Made by a program: the position numbers and the translations under genes | Notes under the pieces: generated by a model | What the model was told of the DNA's origin: nothing | The model's input: only the letters and a program-made list of their open reading frames with translations | Databases searched by the model: none | From: Rhodospirillaceae bacterium | GTDB taxonomy: Bacteria > Pseudomonadota > Alphaproteobacteria > MPNO01 > UBA2964 | NCBI GenBank assembly: GCA_002709075.1 | Contig: PAPV01000015.1 | Span: 62,001 to 126,000 of the forward strand | Direction: 5' to 3' | DNA: 64,000 nucleotides | Part shown: positions 37,241 to 45,575 of the stretch, piece after piece | How positions within the stretch are numbered: position 1 is the stretch's first letter | How the letters are laid out: the number at the start of each line of letters is the position of its first letter

Positions 37241-39583
37241 ATGGGTGAATTTGGTATAGGACAGTCTGTTCCGAGAGAAGAAGATCCTAGACTTCTAACA
37301 GGAGGTGGGGATTTTCTGGACGATGTCAACTTACTGAATCAGGCTTTTGGATACGTTCTTAGAAGTCCACATGCTCATGCTAGCATCTTGTCAATCGATA
37401 TATCAGCTGCGAGAGCTTCAAAAGGTGTTATTAAAATTCTCACTGGCAAAGATTGGATGGAAGAAAATTTTGGTACGATGCCATGTGAAGATACTAACTT
37501 TGCCAAACGTGCGGATGGAAGTGCAATGTTTCATCCCTATCGGGGTGCTTTAGTAACCGATAGAGTACGTTTTGTCGGAGATTATGTTGCATTTGTAATT
37601 GCCGAAACAAAACTTCAAGCGCGGGACGCGGCTGAATTAATTGCGGTAAAATATAAGATTCACCCTGCTATAACCTCAATTGATGATGCTACTACACATG
37701 GAGCAGAGCCAGTATGGCCAGAGAACCCAGATAATATTGCCTTTACTTTGGAAAAAGGCGATGAAAATCAGGTAGATAAAGCTTTTAAAAAGGCTGACCG
37801 AGTAATTACGCATAATTTTGTAATTAACCGAGTGACTGCAGTAACAATGGAGCCAAGGGGATGCATCGGTGATTTTGATAGAAGAACTGACCGATTCACA
37901 CTTTATACCGGACTTCAGAATCCACATCCTGTCCGCCAGCAACTGACGCAAGGAGTTTTTAAAATTCCCGAGACGCAAATGCGAGTGGTACCAGGCGATG
38001 TTGGCGGAAGTTTTGGAATGCGTGGTGGAACTTACCCAGAACTAGCATTAGTTTTGTGGGCAGCCAAAATTATTTCACGTCCGGTAAAATGGACCTGTGA
38101 CAGGTCGGAAGGATTTATGTCCGATGATCATGGAAGAGACAATCTCAGTAAAGTATCATTAGCCGTAGATAAAAACGGATATTTTTTAGGTCTCAAAGTG
38201 GAAACCTTTGCAAGCATGGGGGCTTATTTAGCAATCAGAGGTCCCCGGCCACCTACTAATAATTTAGGAACTCTCGCTGGTGTTTATCGAACTCCAGCTG
38301 CTTTCGTTCGCGTAAGCGGTGTTTTTACAAATATGAACTGCACCAATCCTTATCGAGGATCAGGTGCTCCAGAAGCTGCTTACAATATTGAAAGAATGGT
38401 CGATATTGTTGCTAATGAGCTCAATATGGATCCTGCTAAACTGCGCGCAATAAATTGCGTCACGCCCGATCAGATGCCGTGGACAAATGCCCTTGGTTTT
38501 CATTATGACTGTGGTGATTTTCCAGGCAATCAGGCGAAAGCTTTGAAAGCCATAAATTATGACGACTTCAAGATGCGGCGTGCCTTATCGAAGACGAAAG
38601 GTAAATTACGAGGTATAGGCATATCAAATACTGTGAAAAAAACGTCATCACCATTTCCGGAATCCTGCAAACTTCGGTTCGATCCTTCTGGAACACTTAC
38701 TATGATAATGGGCACGATTAGCCACGGCCAAGGTCATGAAACAATTTTCAAACAAATAGTCTGCGATAAATTAGGGTTAGAACCATCAATTATTAGATAT
38801 GTACAAGGCGACACCGACATAGCGTCTTACGGAAGAGGGACCTTCAATTCTCGTTCAACAGCAATCGGCGGTTCAGCTGCTGCACTTGCGTGCCAAAAAA
38901 CTATAGAGAAAGGAAAGAGGATTGCCTCACACCTGATGGAAACTGCTGAACAAGACATAATTTTTTCAAAAGGCTATTTCACTGTCTCCGGAACCGATCG
39001 ATCACTCAAGTTGATTGAACTGGCTAAAAAATCATTCCAAGCTAATGAATTACCGCCTGACATTGAACCGGGTCTTGATGAGCAGGGAAGTTTCAAACCT
39101 GAGTATTGGAATTGGCCAACGGGGGTCCAGATATGTGAAGTTGAGATTGACCCAGAAACTGGAGAGACTGAAATCCTAAATTTTGTATGTGTAGATGATG
39201 TTGGCACTGTAATTAATCCCTTGCTCTTAAAAGCACAAATGCATGGCGGTATTGCACAGGGAATTGGTCAAGCATTAATGGAGGAAGTAAAATTTGATAG
39301 TGAAACCGGACAACTTTTGTCTGGATCATTGATGGACTATTGTATGCCCCGAGCGGATGACTTTTGCTTCATGGATATTATTAGCTCTCCAACATATACC
39401 CGCTCAAACTTAATTGGCGCCAAAGGTGGTGGTGAGTCGGGGCCTACTGGAGCACTCCCAGCCACTATAAATGCTGTGGTTGATGCACTTCAAGAATTAG
39501 GTATTTATCATTTAGATATGCCAGCAACACCACATAGAATATGGAAGGCTATTCAAAATGCACGCTCAAAAAAGGCTGCATGA
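37241..39583 (+). CDS. Molybdenum hydroxylase large subunit (xanthine dehydrogenase/CoxL family), copy 1
   Basis: 780 residues, full length for the molybdopterin-binding subunit. N-terminal GIGQSVPREEDPRLLTGGGDF, molybdopterin-contact region VPGDVGGSFGMRGGTYPEL (about 250-268), and the catalytic-Glu region GAKGGGESGPTGA (Glu732). The active-site loop reads NPYRGSGAPEA (371-379), not the CO-dehydrogenase AYxCSFR loop, so CO oxidation is unlikely; substrate could be an aldehyde, aromatic or N-heterocycle. It also departs from the common YRGAGR form. The TGA stop is directly followed by the ATG of a second copy. No FAD or 2Fe-2S subunit gene is adjacent. Confidence 0.9.
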   Translation: MGEFGIGQSVPREEDPRLLTGGGDFLDDVNLLNQAFGYVLRSPHAHASILSIDISAARASKGVIKILTGKDWMEENFGTMPCEDTNFAKRADGSAMFHPYRGALVTDRVRFVGDYVAFVIAETKLQARDAAELIAVKYKIHPAITSIDDATTHGAEPVWPENPDNIAFTLEKGDENQVDKAFKKADRVITHNFVINRVTAVTMEPRGCIGDFDRRTDRFTLYTGLQNPHPVRQQLTQGVFKIPETQMRVVPGDVGGSFGMRGGTYPELALVLWAAKIISRPVKWTCDRSEGFMSDDHGRDNLSKVSLAVDKNGYFLGLKVETFASMGAYLAIRGPRPPTNNLGTLAGVYRTPAAFVRVSGVFTNMNCTNPYRGSGAPEAAYNIERMVDIVANELNMDPAKLRAINCVTPDQMPWTNALGFHYDCGDFPGNQAKALKAINYDDFKMRRALSKTKGKLRGIGISNTVKKTSSPFPESCKLRFDPSGTLTMIMGTISHGQGHETIFKQIVCDKLGLEPSIIRYVQGDTDIASYGRGTFNSRSTAIGGSAAALACQKTIEKGKRIASHLMETAEQDIIFSKGYFTVSGTDRSLKLIELAKKSFQANELPPDIEPGLDEQGSFKPEYWNWPTGVQICEVEIDPETGETEILNFVCVDDVGTVINPLLLKAQMHGGIAQGIGQALMEEVKFDSETGQLLSGSLMDYCMPRADDFCFMDIISSPTYTRSNLIGAKGGGESGPTGALPATINAVVDALQELGIYHLDMPATPHRIWKAIQNARSKKAA

Positions 39584-41902
39584 ATGAACAAATTTGGCAT
39601 TGGACAACCAGTCCCTCGAACAGAAGATCCAAGACTACTTCAAGGGCGTGGACAGTATGGTGACGACTTTGTGTTGGCGGATCAAGCGGTTGGCTATTTT
39701 CTACGATCTCCGCATGCTCACGCGAAGATTTTAGATTTAAATTGCAACTCAGCAAAACAAATGCCTGGGATATTGTGTATACTCACCAATGAGGATTTAT
39801 CAAAAATGGATCTTGGTGAATTTCCGGTGGTGGTACAAAGGCAAAAACGTAATGGAACCACACAACAAGCTGCCCGAGAGGGGCTTGCCCGCAATCGAGT
39901 GCGATTTGTTGGTGATCCAATTGCGTTTATTGTCGCAGAAACACTCAATGAAGCAAAAGATGCAGCAGAACAAATTGAAATAAATTTTGAATTACTACCT
40001 TCGCTAACCGATCTGGAAGATTTCAACAGCCAAGAATCATCACCAATCTGGGATGACTGCCCGGATAACGAAGCTTTTTTTTTCGAAATGGGAGACAAGT
40101 CTGCTGTCGATTCAGCGTTTAACAAAGCAGATCACATCACAAAGATCTCCTATCGCATTAACCGAATCTCTGCTAATGCAATGGAACCCAGAGTTTCAAT
40201 TGGAAATTTCGACTGTCGATCAGAACGATATTTTTTGACCACCAGCACGCAGAGTGTACATGGAATACGGACCCACCTTGCTAATATTTTAAAAGTACCA
40301 GAGACAGTCATCCGTGTAAAAGCGGGTGATGTTGGCGGTGCATTTGGTATGAAAGGTGAACTATACGATGACCAGTTACTTGTATTAATAGCTTCACAAC
40401 GAGTTGGGAGACCAGTCCGTTGGACTGCGGACCGCACTGAATCTCTTATGTCCGATACCCATGCTCGCGACAATAAAGTTACTGCGGAACTTGCTCTAGA
40501 CTTACATGGAAAGTTTTTAGGTTTCCGTGTCCATACAGTCGCCGCGCTCGGCGCATACATGTCTATGATGACAGGACATTCTCCTACAAATAACTTAGGT
40601 GGATTGGCTGGTGTATACACCACACCAGCGATCTATACTTCCGTCTCCGGTGTCTTTACAAACAATAACAATACCGCGCCATATCGCGGTGCAGGTCGCC
40701 CGGAAGCAAGTCTTGCTATTGAAAAGGCTATCGACAAGGCGGCACGTGAGTTGAAAATTGATCGTTCAGAAATTAGACGCCGTAATATAATTGCTCGGGA
40801 GTCAATGCCCTTTCAAACCGGCTTGATATTTAATTATGACTCAGGTCGATTTGAAGAAACGCTCGATAAGACATTAGTCTTGGCAGGATGGTCAGATTTT
40901 GAGACAAGGCGCAAAAAGGCGGTCTCGGAGGGGAAACTGCGGGGAATAGGCCTAGCCTGCGCTATTGAACAATCTGCTGCCCCAATAGAAGAAGCAGCTG
41001 AAATTCGTTTTGATAGCAAAGGTAAATGCGCTATTCTTGTTGGCACTGTCGCGCAAGGTCAAGGCCATGACATAACATTTAAACAAATTACAAATGAACT
41101 GCTTGGCGTGCCCATAGAAAATATAACATTTTTACAAGCTGATACCGATATTGTAGCGCACGGCCGGGGCACCTTTGGGTCTCGCTCTGCCGGCAATGGT
41201 GGTGGAGCCCTAATGATGGCAAGCGAGAGAATAATAAGGAAAGGAAAAATTATTGCAGCTTACATGCTCGAAGCCGCACAGGAAGATATCATATTTGAGA
41301 ATGGAAATTTTAAAATTGGCGGCACAGATAGAAAAGTGGAGTTAGCTGATGTCGCAAAACAAGCCTACAATGTGAATTTGCCTCCAAGTATAGAACCAAC
41401 ATTGCAGGCGCAAGCTGCTTTCAAACCCAATGCCCCTACTTTTCCAAATGGATGCCACGCTTGCGAATTAGAGATAGACCCGAGTACTGGAACCACAGAG
41501 TTTATGAAATACATCGTAGTCGACGACGTTGGAACAGTAATAAACCCACTTCTTCTAAAGGGTCAAATTATTGGCGGCGTTTCGCAGGGGTTGGGTCAAG
41601 CAATATGCGAAGATGTCGCATACGACCGCCAGAGCGGTCAGTTAATATCAGCATCATTTGTAGACTACTGCATGCCGCGAGCAGATGACATGTGCTATGT
41701 GGACGTAGTAAGCAACAGTGATCCTTCCCCTACAAACCCGCTTGGCATCAAGGGAGCAGGGGAGGCTGGGTGTGTTGGCGCTCTTCCATGCGTACAAAGT
41801 GCACTGATTGATGCGCTTTCTCCCCTAGGCATTACTGACGTACCAATGCCAGCCACCCCTTTCAGATTATGGAAGCTCCTTCAAACGGTTAACCCCTCCT
41901 AA
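39584..41902 (+). CDS. Molybdenum hydroxylase large subunit (xanthine dehydrogenase/CoxL family), copy 2
   Basis: 772 residues, closely parallel to copy 1 over its whole length (GIGQPVPRTEDPRLLQGRGQ at the N-terminus, KAGDVGGAFGMKGELYDDQ, GIKGAGEAGCVGALP at the C-terminus with the catalytic Glu). The active-site loop is APYRGAGRPEA (365-375), the form II type found in aldehyde- and heterocycle-oxidising relatives, not CO dehydrogenase. Copies 1 and 2 start alike and abut without spacing, so they are probably cotranslated and may form a mixed enzyme; this is inference. Small and medium subunits must come from elsewhere in the genome. Confidence 0.9.
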   Translation: MNKFGIGQPVPRTEDPRLLQGRGQYGDDFVLADQAVGYFLRSPHAHAKILDLNCNSAKQMPGILCILTNEDLSKMDLGEFPVVVQRQKRNGTTQQAAREGLARNRVRFVGDPIAFIVAETLNEAKDAAEQIEINFELLPSLTDLEDFNSQESSPIWDDCPDNEAFFFEMGDKSAVDSAFNKADHITKISYRINRISANAMEPRVSIGNFDCRSERYFLTTSTQSVHGIRTHLANILKVPETVIRVKAGDVGGAFGMKGELYDDQLLVLIASQRVGRPVRWTADRTESLMSDTHARDNKVTAELALDLHGKFLGFRVHTVAALGAYMSMMTGHSPTNNLGGLAGVYTTPAIYTSVSGVFTNNNNTAPYRGAGRPEASLAIEKAIDKAARELKIDRSEIRRRNIIARESMPFQTGLIFNYDSGRFEETLDKTLVLAGWSDFETRRKKAVSEGKLRGIGLACAIEQSAAPIEEAAEIRFDSKGKCAILVGTVAQGQGHDITFKQITNELLGVPIENITFLQADTDIVAHGRGTFGSRSAGNGGGALMMASERIIRKGKIIAAYMLEAAQEDIIFENGNFKIGGTDRKVELADVAKQAYNVNLPPSIEPTLQAQAAFKPNAPTFPNGCHACELEIDPSTGTTEFMKYIVVDDVGTVINPLLLKGQIIGGVSQGLGQAICEDVAYDRQSGQLISASFVDYCMPRADDMCYVDVVSNSDPSPTNPLGIKGAGEAGCVGALPCVQSALIDALSPLGITDVPMPATPFRLWKLLQTVNPS

Positions 41903-41955: not shown

Positions 41956-43281
41956 TTAAACTGCACAAGTTCGAAATCCCGAAAAGCGATCACTACGATC
42001 CATCGCTTCAAAATTACGTAAGGTATTCCATACGGCTCTTCCGCGGGTTGCCCAAGACCCACCCCGGAGAACCGGATGGCGACCGTCCATATGTGATCGG
42101 GAAAATTTTTCCATCATATCAGGAGCGAATCCTGGATATTCTGACAGTGCTGATTGGGTCCACTCCCAGACGTTACCAATCATTTGACGAGCACCATATC
42201 CACTATCACCCGAGGGAAAGGATGTCACATCACAGGGACCGCCAAAGTTACCATCAAGGTTTGCAAATGTTACGTTGATTGTATTTTTGTTCCAAGGGTA
42301 ACGGTGTTTGGGACCACTTAATTTATTTTCAAAACGGGGAACTAATGATGCTGCAATTTCCCATTCTCCCTCCCAAGGCAACCTCCGACCTGCCCAACGA
42401 CACCACGCATCAGCTTCAAACCAGTTTACATGAATAATGGGATCTGACTTTTTTAAAAGCTCCCATTTGTCGAATAGACGTGCATTCCATCCATTTGAGT
42501 TTTCTCTCCAATAGACTGGATTTCGAGCTTTTGTATATGATCGCCACCCCCATCCTGCTTTAGACCACAAATCACTCCGTTCATAACCACCATCTTCTAA
42601 AAATAAGAGAAATTCTTCATTCGTTACAGCAAGTCTTGAAATATGAAATGGTGCCACCTCGTAACCGTGGCCCCATTTTTCATTGTCTAGAATAAAACCA
42701 TCTTCTGGTGATGCTCCTAGGGAATGAATACCTCCCGGTATGTAAACATCTCCGGCTTGTGACTTGCCAGAAGCGACTACCATGTCACCAACAAAACTCG
42801 GAGCGGGAAAGCCATTAACTTGGCGTTGTGTGATAAGCATTTCTCCAAGCATATCCTCACGTTGTACACAAAACCGACATGCAAAACTTGCTTCAGGAGA
42901 GGCTTTTTCAAGGTCACCAAGTGCGAATGAAACGCTATCAGCTACTCGGTTAAAATAGTTCATTGTTGTATCAATATCAGGTAAAGGTAAATTCCATAAA
43001 TTGGAATTCAGTGCAATCTGATCATTGAATAAAGCACCCACATCCGAGAGCCCGACCGGCTGCATTCCCAAACGATCTAATAGATAGTGGTCATAAAGCC
43101 AAGCAATATGTCCAAGAACCCAAAGCGGTGGTAAAAAATTTCGACGACACGGCCCAATCAACATTTCGTCACTTAAATCAGCTACCAGTGCCTTTGTCCT
43201 GCAATGTGCATCCGCAGTAATACTTAAGAGATCGGAAATGAGCATGGGTTCTACAGTCGATGGAGGACGCACTAGGGGCAT
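41956..43281 (-). CDS. EgtB/SUMF1-like protein with altered iron-binding motif
   Basis: 441 residues. An N-terminal DinB-like four-helix domain (about 15-160) and a C-terminal FGE-sulfatase/SUMF1 domain (about 175-440: HVNWFEADAWCRWAGRRLPWEGEWE, read in parts, GNVWEWTQSA, LRGGSWATRG, FSGFRTCAV). This is the architecture of EgtB/OvoA-type non-heme iron sulfoxide synthases. The first iron-ligand His is present (LGHIAW, His58), but the second motif, usually H-E-x-M-H-x-E, reads REDMLGE (141-147), so two of three His are gone. A changed metal or changed function is likely. It faces the CoxG-like gene divergently. Confidence 0.8.
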   Translation of the reverse strand: MPLVRPPSTVEPMLISDLLSITADAHCRTKALVADLSDEMLIGPCRRNFLPPLWVLGHIAWLYDHYLLDRLGMQPVGLSDVGALFNDQIALNSNLWNLPLPDIDTTMNYFNRVADSVSFALGDLEKASPEASFACRFCVQREDMLGEMLITQRQVNGFPAPSFVGDMVVASGKSQAGDVYIPGGIHSLGASPEDGFILDNEKWGHGYEVAPFHISRLAVTNEEFLLFLEDGGYERSDLWSKAGWGWRSYTKARNPVYWRENSNGWNARLFDKWELLKKSDPIIHVNWFEADAWCRWAGRRLPWEGEWEIAASLVPRFENKLSGPKHRYPWNKNTINVTFANLDGNFGGPCDVTSFPSGDSGYGARQMIGNVWEWTQSALSEYPGFAPDMMEKFSRSHMDGRHPVLRGGSWATRGRAVWNTLRNFEAMDRSDRFSGFRTCAV

Positions 43282-43371: not shown

Positions 43372-43995
43372 ATGGAATTTGATAACAAATTCAACGTCCC
43401 GGTTTCGACCGAAGAGGCGTGGAAAATCCTTATGGATATTGAACGAATAGCCCCTTGCGTACCAGGTGCAGAGTTAACAGAGATAGTTGATGAGAGGACC
43501 TACAAAGGAAAAGTATCGGTCAAACTAGGTCCTGTAGCATTAACTCTTAGTGGCCAGACGAGCTTCGATGATATCGACGAAAACGAAAAGAAAGCTCGAC
43601 TCACTGCAAAGGGTAACGATACGAAGGGTCGCGGAGGAGCGAATGCAACAGTTGCATTTCACATGGAAGAAGTAAGTGACGGCACTTGCGTGGTTATTAA
43701 TACAAATCTCCAATTATCAGGCGCCGTAGCGCAGTACGGACGCGGTGTAGGCATGGTAAAAGATCTGGCACAACAAATAATTGACCAATTTGCAAAGAAT
43801 TTAAGAGAGAATGTTATAGCACCGTCGACTTCCGCCCAATTAACAAAACAAGATACTGACAGTGCTGTAAAAGATACCTCGGCCACCAATGGTATAAAAC
43901 CCGCAGCACCAGTTCAGGTAGGAAGCATGGGTCTAAAAGTCATTTGGAACGCTATGTTACGGGGATTACGAAAAGTTTTTGGTATGAGCAAATGA
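43372..43995 (+). CDS. CoxG-like SRPBCC-fold protein
   Basis: 207 residues. The first 150 match the CO-dehydrogenase subunit G (CoxG) family: MEFDNKFNVPVSTEEAWKIL, DIERIAPCVPGAELTE and the AQYGRGVGMVKDLAQQIIDQF helix. The tail is polar and ends in an amphipathic, possibly membrane-binding helix (VIWNAMLRGLRKVFGM). CoxG helps attach carbon monoxide dehydrogenase to the membrane in Oligotropha; relatives accompany other molybdenum hydroxylases, as here. It probably serves the two hydroxylase large subunits next door. Confidence 0.87.
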   Translation: MEFDNKFNVPVSTEEAWKILMDIERIAPCVPGAELTEIVDERTYKGKVSVKLGPVALTLSGQTSFDDIDENEKKARLTAKGNDTKGRGGANATVAFHMEEVSDGTCVVINTNLQLSGAVAQYGRGVGMVKDLAQQIIDQFAKNLRENVIAPSTSAQLTKQDTDSAVKDTSATNGIKPAAPVQVGSMGLKVIWNAMLRGLRKVFGMSK

Positions 43996-44420: not shown

Positions 44421-45575
44421 ATGACCCGGAAACATATCCTTGCAGCATTGATTATTCCTGGATTTTTGATATCAGGATGTTCAACAGATGATTTGTGGCC
44501 ATCATTTTTGATGAGCGAACCAGAACCGCTGCCAGTACCTACCAAGACCGCGGAGAGCTCAACGCAGAAAGAAGTTAACGATCAGTCAGCACCTAAAACC
44601 TCTGCAAAACCCCCTGCGCTGAACTCCACAAACTTTGTTCCGCCGAAAGTTACTCCTGGGCAACAAACTGGAACTTTTGTTGGTCAAAAAGTACAAATGC
44701 TCAGAGGCGAGTTGCGGCGGATGCAGTCTGAAATCAATCGGCATAATAAAACTTTACAGAATATAAGAAAACAAACACAGAAGCATGCTCAGAAATACCA
44801 TGCGTCGGTTGCCGCTATCAATTCGCGTCTACAGGTTGGTACAACACCGGGAAATCCATTTCTTGTAAATCAATGGAATGTCAGCCAACAACAACTTGCT
44901 CAAATTGACGGCGACATTGGAAAAATGAATGCCTTGGCGAATTCTGTTGCAGGCACGAGTACTATGTCTTCATATTTACTTGAAACGACACGGGCAGCTT
45001 ATGGGTTGACCGGAGCTGTAGAAGAAGATCATAGACAATTGGCGATATTAGAAGATGAAGTAAACCGCACTGTTGTTCTCATTGATAGACTTTTAAACGA
45101 ATTAAGCGAAGATATATCGCGTCAGTCTACCTATATGGCAAATGAACGATCGAATTTAACAACACTATCACTTGCAATAAAGAATGGTGAGTTGCTTGGG
45201 CAAAGTCTGTCGAATCGAGCTTACGCGAGTGTTCCAATTGCTCAGGGCATTCGTTCCAATAGAACTGTTTCTAAACGCAGTCCTCTAGTTGTTATTCGAT
45301 TCGATAGTGCCAATGTTGAGTACAAACAAGCACTTTATAATGCGGTAAATCGTGCTTTACAAAGAAAACCTGATGCTGGTTTTGATATTGTGGCAGTTGC
45401 ATCAGGGCAAGGGTCGCCTGCGCAAGTGACGATAGATAGCAACAAGGCAAAACGTAACGCTGAGGCTGTACTCAGATCTCTTTCGGAGATGGGTTTGCCG
45501 CTTCAACGAGTGCGGTTATCATCATCCACTAGCAACGCTGCCCGAACAAACGAGGTGCACGTGTTCGTAAGGTAA
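44421..45575 (+). CDS. OmpA-like outer membrane lipoprotein with coiled coil
   Basis: 384 residues. Signal peptide ending in the lipobox LISGC (Cys20). A Pro/Ser/Thr-rich linker (about 35-85) precedes a helical coiled-coil region (about 90-255, for example LRGELRRMQSEINRHNKTL) and a C-terminal OmpA/MotB-like domain (about 290-384: VVIRFDSANVEYKQALYNAV, SNKAKRNAEAVLRSL). Such proteins tether the outer membrane to peptidoglycan; here the usual OmpA motif is only partly kept, so peptidoglycan binding is probable, not certain. It stands alone, with its promoter presumably in the gap after the tRNA. Confidence 0.78.
   Translation: MTRKHILAALIIPGFLISGCSTDDLWPSFLMSEPEPLPVPTKTAESSTQKEVNDQSAPKTSAKPPALNSTNFVPPKVTPGQQTGTFVGQKVQMLRGELRRMQSEINRHNKTLQNIRKQTQKHAQKYHASVAAINSRLQVGTTPGNPFLVNQWNVSQQQLAQIDGDIGKMNALANSVAGTSTMSSYLLETTRAAYGLTGAVEEDHRQLAILEDEVNRTVVLIDRLLNELSEDISRQSTYMANERSNLTTLSLAIKNGELLGQSLSNRAYASVPIAQGIRSNRTVSKRSPLVVIRFDSANVEYKQALYNAVNRALQRKPDAGFDIVAVASGQGSPAQVTIDSNKAKRNAEAVLRSLSEMGLPLQRVRLSSSTSNAARTNEVHVFVR

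Follow-up and report, generated by a model that had tools for sequence, protein, structure and literature searches.

Whether a protein of the EgtB/SUMF1 type that has lost two of its three iron-ligand histidines is a decaying relic or has been put to another use is the question raised by one gene of the window, the whole 64,000-nucleotide stretch of a Rhodospirillaceae genome that was analysed. The gene (41956..43281, minus strand, ATG start, stop included) encoded a SenA-derived protein of 441 residues without a complete iron site.

Fold and nearest family

The protein was composed of a DinB-like N-terminal helical domain and a C-terminal SUMF1/FGE domain, as assigned by Pfam, AlphaFold2, and Foldseek, and this arrangement defines the EgtB/SenA/OvoA/OvsA superfamily. 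The SUMF1 domain, previously described as well kept, was matched by the Pfam FGE-sulfatase model at 1.2e-42, and DinB_2 was just under its cut-off. The AlphaFold2 model, built from 72 sequences, had a pLDDT of 93 and a pTM of 0.92. When this model was compared with known structures by Foldseek, those of OvsA, EgtB, and SenA were on top. The best match was OvsA, the ovoselenol-biosynthetic selenoxide synthase (PDB codes 8u41, 8u42, and 8ux5), with TM scores of 0.88–0.90 and an identity of 31–32%; unlike the window protein, OvsA retains HQNMH and is an active synthase. The ergothioneine sulfoxide synthase EgtB (TIGR03440; PDB code 4x8b) shared the same fold, with TM scores of 0.85–0.88. The predicted fold and the assignment to the superfamily are regarded as secure.

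SenA (selenoneine synthase), and not EgtB proper, is the nearest family. The top NCBIfam match was the SenA model (NF041186; PDB codes 8k5i and 8ryz) at 354.4 bits, below the equivalog cut-off of 420, followed by the EgtB model at 264.3 bits, which did not reach its cut-off of 360. The SenA cut-off was passed by the orthologue in the sister genus g4 (467 bits) and by the intact SenA of the window's own genome (495 bits), whereas the orthologue in a second species of the window's genus (373 bits) failed. The protein resembled SenA in its two-domain architecture, its best family score, and its descent from a senA-senB locus, and differed from it in two iron ligands, a tyrosine pair, and an invariant arginine, all replaced. 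The "EgtB-type" label of the preliminary description was thus right for the fold and had to be revised for the family, since SenA was closest both by score and in the tree.

The former iron site

The residues of the site were identified by alignment with MthEgtB, in which H51, H134, and H138 corresponded to H58, R141, and L145, Tyr377 and Tyr380 to M390 and F393, and R90 to L95. The MthEgtB numbering was verified against H51, H134, H138, and Y377 as given in PMC13426267, and the roles of the SenA residues were taken from this mapping and from PDB entry titles. Of the three-histidine iron site of SenA (H + HxxxH), only H58 (codon 43108..43110, minus strand) was retained. Residues 141–147 (42841..42861, minus strand) read REDMLGE in place of HEDMHDE, with R141 and L145 at the positions of H134 and H138. 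The preliminary reading of H58, of REDMLGE, and of the loss of two iron-ligand histidines was therefore borne out by the translation of the open reading frame and by the alignment. The motif was aligned unambiguously through the retained residues E142, M144, and E147, and its counterpart in an independent genome read REDMWGE, which excludes both chance and a misalignment. Substitute ligands were also sought among the histidines common to both species (58, 186, 205, 284, and 402, of which H205 is frequent in other SenAs) and were rejected, as none was both shared and new; the sequence comparison placed no other histidine in the metal site.

The loss was not limited to the metal ligands, as first described, but extended to the catalytic Tyr390, to Tyr393, and to the invariant R95. 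M390 and F393 (42103..42114, minus strand) replaced the two invariant tyrosines that correspond to the catalytic Tyr377 and to Tyr380 of MthEgtB, and methionine stood at position 390 in both species of the genus. The stretch from D87 to L95 (42997..43023, minus strand) carried two further replacements, of a serine and of an arginine (MthEgtB R90) that are invariant elsewhere. The conserved sites lost in both species were E55V, F62L, S87D, R95L, H141R, H145L/W, F379L, Y390M, Y393F/W, and F398M, and eight of these ten showed the same replacement in the two proteins. Among the 82 family-invariant sites, defined by a conservation of 95% or more across 78 further members of the family, 68 were retained in both.

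Evolved EgtB loses its new-to-nature activity, and its iron content falls, when H51 or H134 is substituted, whereas H138 variants of one evolved EgtB retain some activity (PMC13426267). Tyr377 is critical for C–S bond formation in EgtB (PMC10903977). By MthEgtB standards, the 441-residue protein would lack what the iron chemistry needs: one ligand of three and no catalytic tyrosine would allow neither SenA-like iron binding nor the joining of selenosugar and hercynine. It is very probable from this comparison that the protein is a pseudoenzyme derived from SenA, free of iron and no longer able to make selenoneine.

The genus was represented in the set searched by two genomes, that of the window (G000) and that of an uncultured Rhodospirillaceae bacterium (G001; contig CAJXEC010000001). 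The latter encoded a full-length orthologue at the same locus, 56% identical, with REDMWGE. Homologues with the altered motif were found to form a clade, that of a single genus, and the identical REDMLGE, which had been the proposed marker, was not present in G001. No other member without both histidines was found when 84,980 species genomes were scanned with two peptide patterns, or in profile searches of class (385) and phylum (399) genomes. Every other relative with the motif read, from many phyla, had histidine at both positions; in a distant EgtB (L025) the motif was misaligned by a gap. The altered motif thus appears confined so far to one genus and two genomes.

Remodelling of the pocket and possible roles

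The residues newly fixed in both species include V55, L62, D87, L95, C135, C138, Q140, R141, C350, M390, and M398. The most suggestive of these is the new C135-x-x-C138 (42868..42879, minus strand), which lies on the helix formerly bearing the HxxxH pair; both cysteines were shared with the orthologue in G001 and had a frequency of about 1% at each site among other family members. Changes shared by the two species were counted at sites invariant in g4. They occupied 19 of 59 sites in the segments bearing the ligands and tyrosines (residues 51–72, 129–156, and 371–400) and 22 of 197 elsewhere (Fisher p = 0.0004, a somewhat favourable value, since the segments were picked from known active-site positions but after the lost residues had been listed). 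The intact SenA of both genomes, counted in the same way, gave 0 of 61 and 6 of 171, respectively. Identity between the two species was 82% in helix 51–72, 64% in helix 129–156, and 73% in segment 371–400, whereas identity to g4 was 41, 29, and 40%, respectively. This pattern shows that the former active-site segments underwent a burst of change and afterwards became conserved once more, as expected if a pocket had been remodelled and unlike what a relic free of constraint would show.

For the altered protein, a role in ligand binding or regulation is the best guess; it would then work without redox chemistry. The pocket formed by R141, D87, H58, and M390 might accommodate a small molecule, for which hercynine, selenoneine, or another betaine akin to them would be candidates; alternatively, the protein might form a pair with the intact SenA that the cell also encodes. 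Taken as a whole, the statement that an iron-free SenA-derived pseudoenzyme now acts as a binding or regulatory protein is reasonably probable. The occurrence of the altered gene in only two genomes argues against it. In addition, positions 393 and 423, which correspond to two of those that distinguish hercynine from histidine in OvsA (derived from the M401Y/Q430N/A431F variant in the title of PDB entry 8ux5 and mapped by alignment), were F/N in one species and W/H in the other, so that a conserved binding of hercynine is not assured.

SUMF2 is not known to have FGE activity. This FGE-fold paralogue of an active enzyme (PDB code 1y4j) offers a precedent in the manner of working, but it is distantly related, has no DinB-like domain, and represents an independent loss. 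A full-text search of a library of open-access papers, with few subscription papers among them, yielded no description of any SenA/EgtB-family pseudoenzyme.

The main rival to a binding or regulatory pseudoenzyme, itself somewhat unlikely, is a neofunctionalised enzyme with a different chemistry, in which C135-x-x-C138 (and C350) would form a new metal or thiol site together with H58, D87, or E147. Copper is held by cysteine ligands in FGE. Binding of copper by SUMF1-fold relatives such as FGE (PDB entries) favours this reading, as do the conservation of the pocket segments after their change and the fixation in both species of C135, C138, C350, D87, and R141, which are absent or nearly absent elsewhere; the three new cysteines may leave room for other metal or redox chemistry. 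However, the CxxC lies within a helix, where both cysteines may merely pack, and no partner gene indicates a reaction. The more specific proposal that the former SenA pocket has become a metal or thiol-redox site of C135-x-x-C138, perhaps joined by C350, H58, and D87, with chemistry new to the EgtB/SenA superfamily, possibly acting on hercynine or selenoneine, is fairly improbable.

Also considered next to the pseudoenzyme reading, and highly improbable, is a slow decay in which the gene, as a redundant copy of senA, would be a relic on its way out. The redundancy with the intact SenA would allow it, and for the same species split the tree branches of the altered pair (0.62 and 0.66) were longer than those of the intact SenA pair (0.37 and 0.38). 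The altered pair is thus under less constraint than the intact one, yet far from neutral. For the pair formed by the window protein and its orthologue in G001, omega = 1 was rejected (2dlnL 271), which shows purifying selection; synonymous sites were saturated, and only this rejection, and no dN/dS value, is used. Despite this saturation, the frame was open at full length in both species, and the codon of R141 differed synonymously between them (CGT and CGG), so that the arginine was retained across the difference. Helix 51–72, conserved between the species and remote from g4, also speaks against a relic. Decay is therefore unlikely, given the full-length frame, the rejection of omega = 1, and the 68 family-invariant sites kept in both species. 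Together with the burst of change and the later constraint, these results upheld the earlier suggestion of a repurposed protein. Purifying selection combined with the loss of essential catalytic residues, the mark of a pseudoenzyme, thus seems to describe the 441-residue protein.

An active SenA/EgtB-type synthase with an unusual metal site of H58 and other residues has very little probability. The overall fold and most invariant sites were indeed retained, but the shared histidines include no new residue at the site, the catalytic tyrosine and R95 were replaced as well, and in evolved EgtB one substitution at H134 is enough to abolish the activity assayed (PMC13426267). A sequencing or assembly error is practically negligible, as the same positions were altered, partly by other codons, in a separate assembly of another species (CAJXEC010000001).

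Locus history and neighbourhood

The window protein and its orthologue in G001 were grouped in the tree with support of 100/100 on a stem of 0.97, as sister to the g4 copies and nested among intact SenA-like sequences, which indicates descent from SenA. The intact SenA proteins of these two genomes were located in a separate clade with G002 and family f3. The g4 copies, with HEDMHDE as their motif, occupy the equivalent position between coxL and coxG; the window gene is their positional orthologue. Elsewhere in the genome of the window, the intact SenA gene adjoins SenB and an oxidoreductase–SelD fusion. This intact selenoneine set (L044 3280–10858, on contig C13 of G000; L168–L172) also includes a putative selenate-type ABC transporter (TIGR04553). 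In g4, the corresponding SelD–SenB locus was without senA, and the cox-locus copy was the only full-length SenA-type match found. EgtD, the gene for hercynine supply, was present in both genera.

In a genome of a related family (G022), the gene order was senA-senB-coxG (L042 6929–9877), so the cox locus descends from a senA-senB pair. No senB was found beside the window gene, where it would be a weak mark of SenA, since the intact g4 copies are also without an adjacent senB; in the window's genus, senB adjoins the intact senA instead. The simplest account would be an ancestor with two senA lineages. In g4, the cox-locus lineage would have survived and its counterpart disappeared; in the window's genus, the lineage next to senB-selD would have been retained and the cox-locus copy altered. 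The cox-locus lineage would have lost its O2/iron chemistry in the ancestor of the genus and, its pocket rebuilt, would have been retained as a pseudoenzyme.

This gene, intact in one genus and altered at the corresponding locus of its sister, provides a natural experiment in which the cell's own intact SenA serves as a control, and it makes testable what the sulfoxide/selenoxide synthase scaffold does without iron. For proteins annotated as "EgtB/SUMF1 family", synthesis of selenoneine or ergothioneine should be inferred only once the ligands have been checked.

The gene is flanked by a divergent CoxG-like gene (Pfam COXG; 43372..43995, plus strand) and by a convergent gene for a stand-alone CoxL-type molybdenum hydroxylase subunit of 772 residues (39584..41902, plus strand), next to a second CoxL-type subunit gene (780 residues; 37241..39583, plus strand). 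Neither a CoxM (medium) nor a CoxS (small) subunit gene adjoined the CoxL pair; eight FAD-subunit genes were found elsewhere in the genome. The gene order was conserved in both genera over about 15 kb, from the cox genes to panC, panB, a gamma-glutamyltransferase-like gene, and transporter genes, and coxG was adjacent to the gene in all orthologous loci and to senA-senB in G022. The molybdenum-hydroxylase neighbours proposed as a shared feature were indeed shared, but they were not diagnostic and were rejected as a functional clue; intact g4 orthologues have the same neighbours in the same order, and the neighbours therefore do not explain the loss of the histidines.

Several minor features of the loci were observed. 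In G022, the CoxG-like protein is linked with selenoneine genes by the gene order. An SDR gene lies between the two CoxL genes in G001 and, with further genes, in g4, and is absent from the window. Genome G012 carried two near-identical intact cox-locus senA copies on separate contigs (L006/L037 and L032), possibly a strain mixture, as this genome was 96% complete and 8% contaminated. Finally, a probable lipoprotein of 384 residues adjoining coxG (44421–45575) had no Pfam or NCBIfam match at the thresholds used and was 62–68% identical in both genera.
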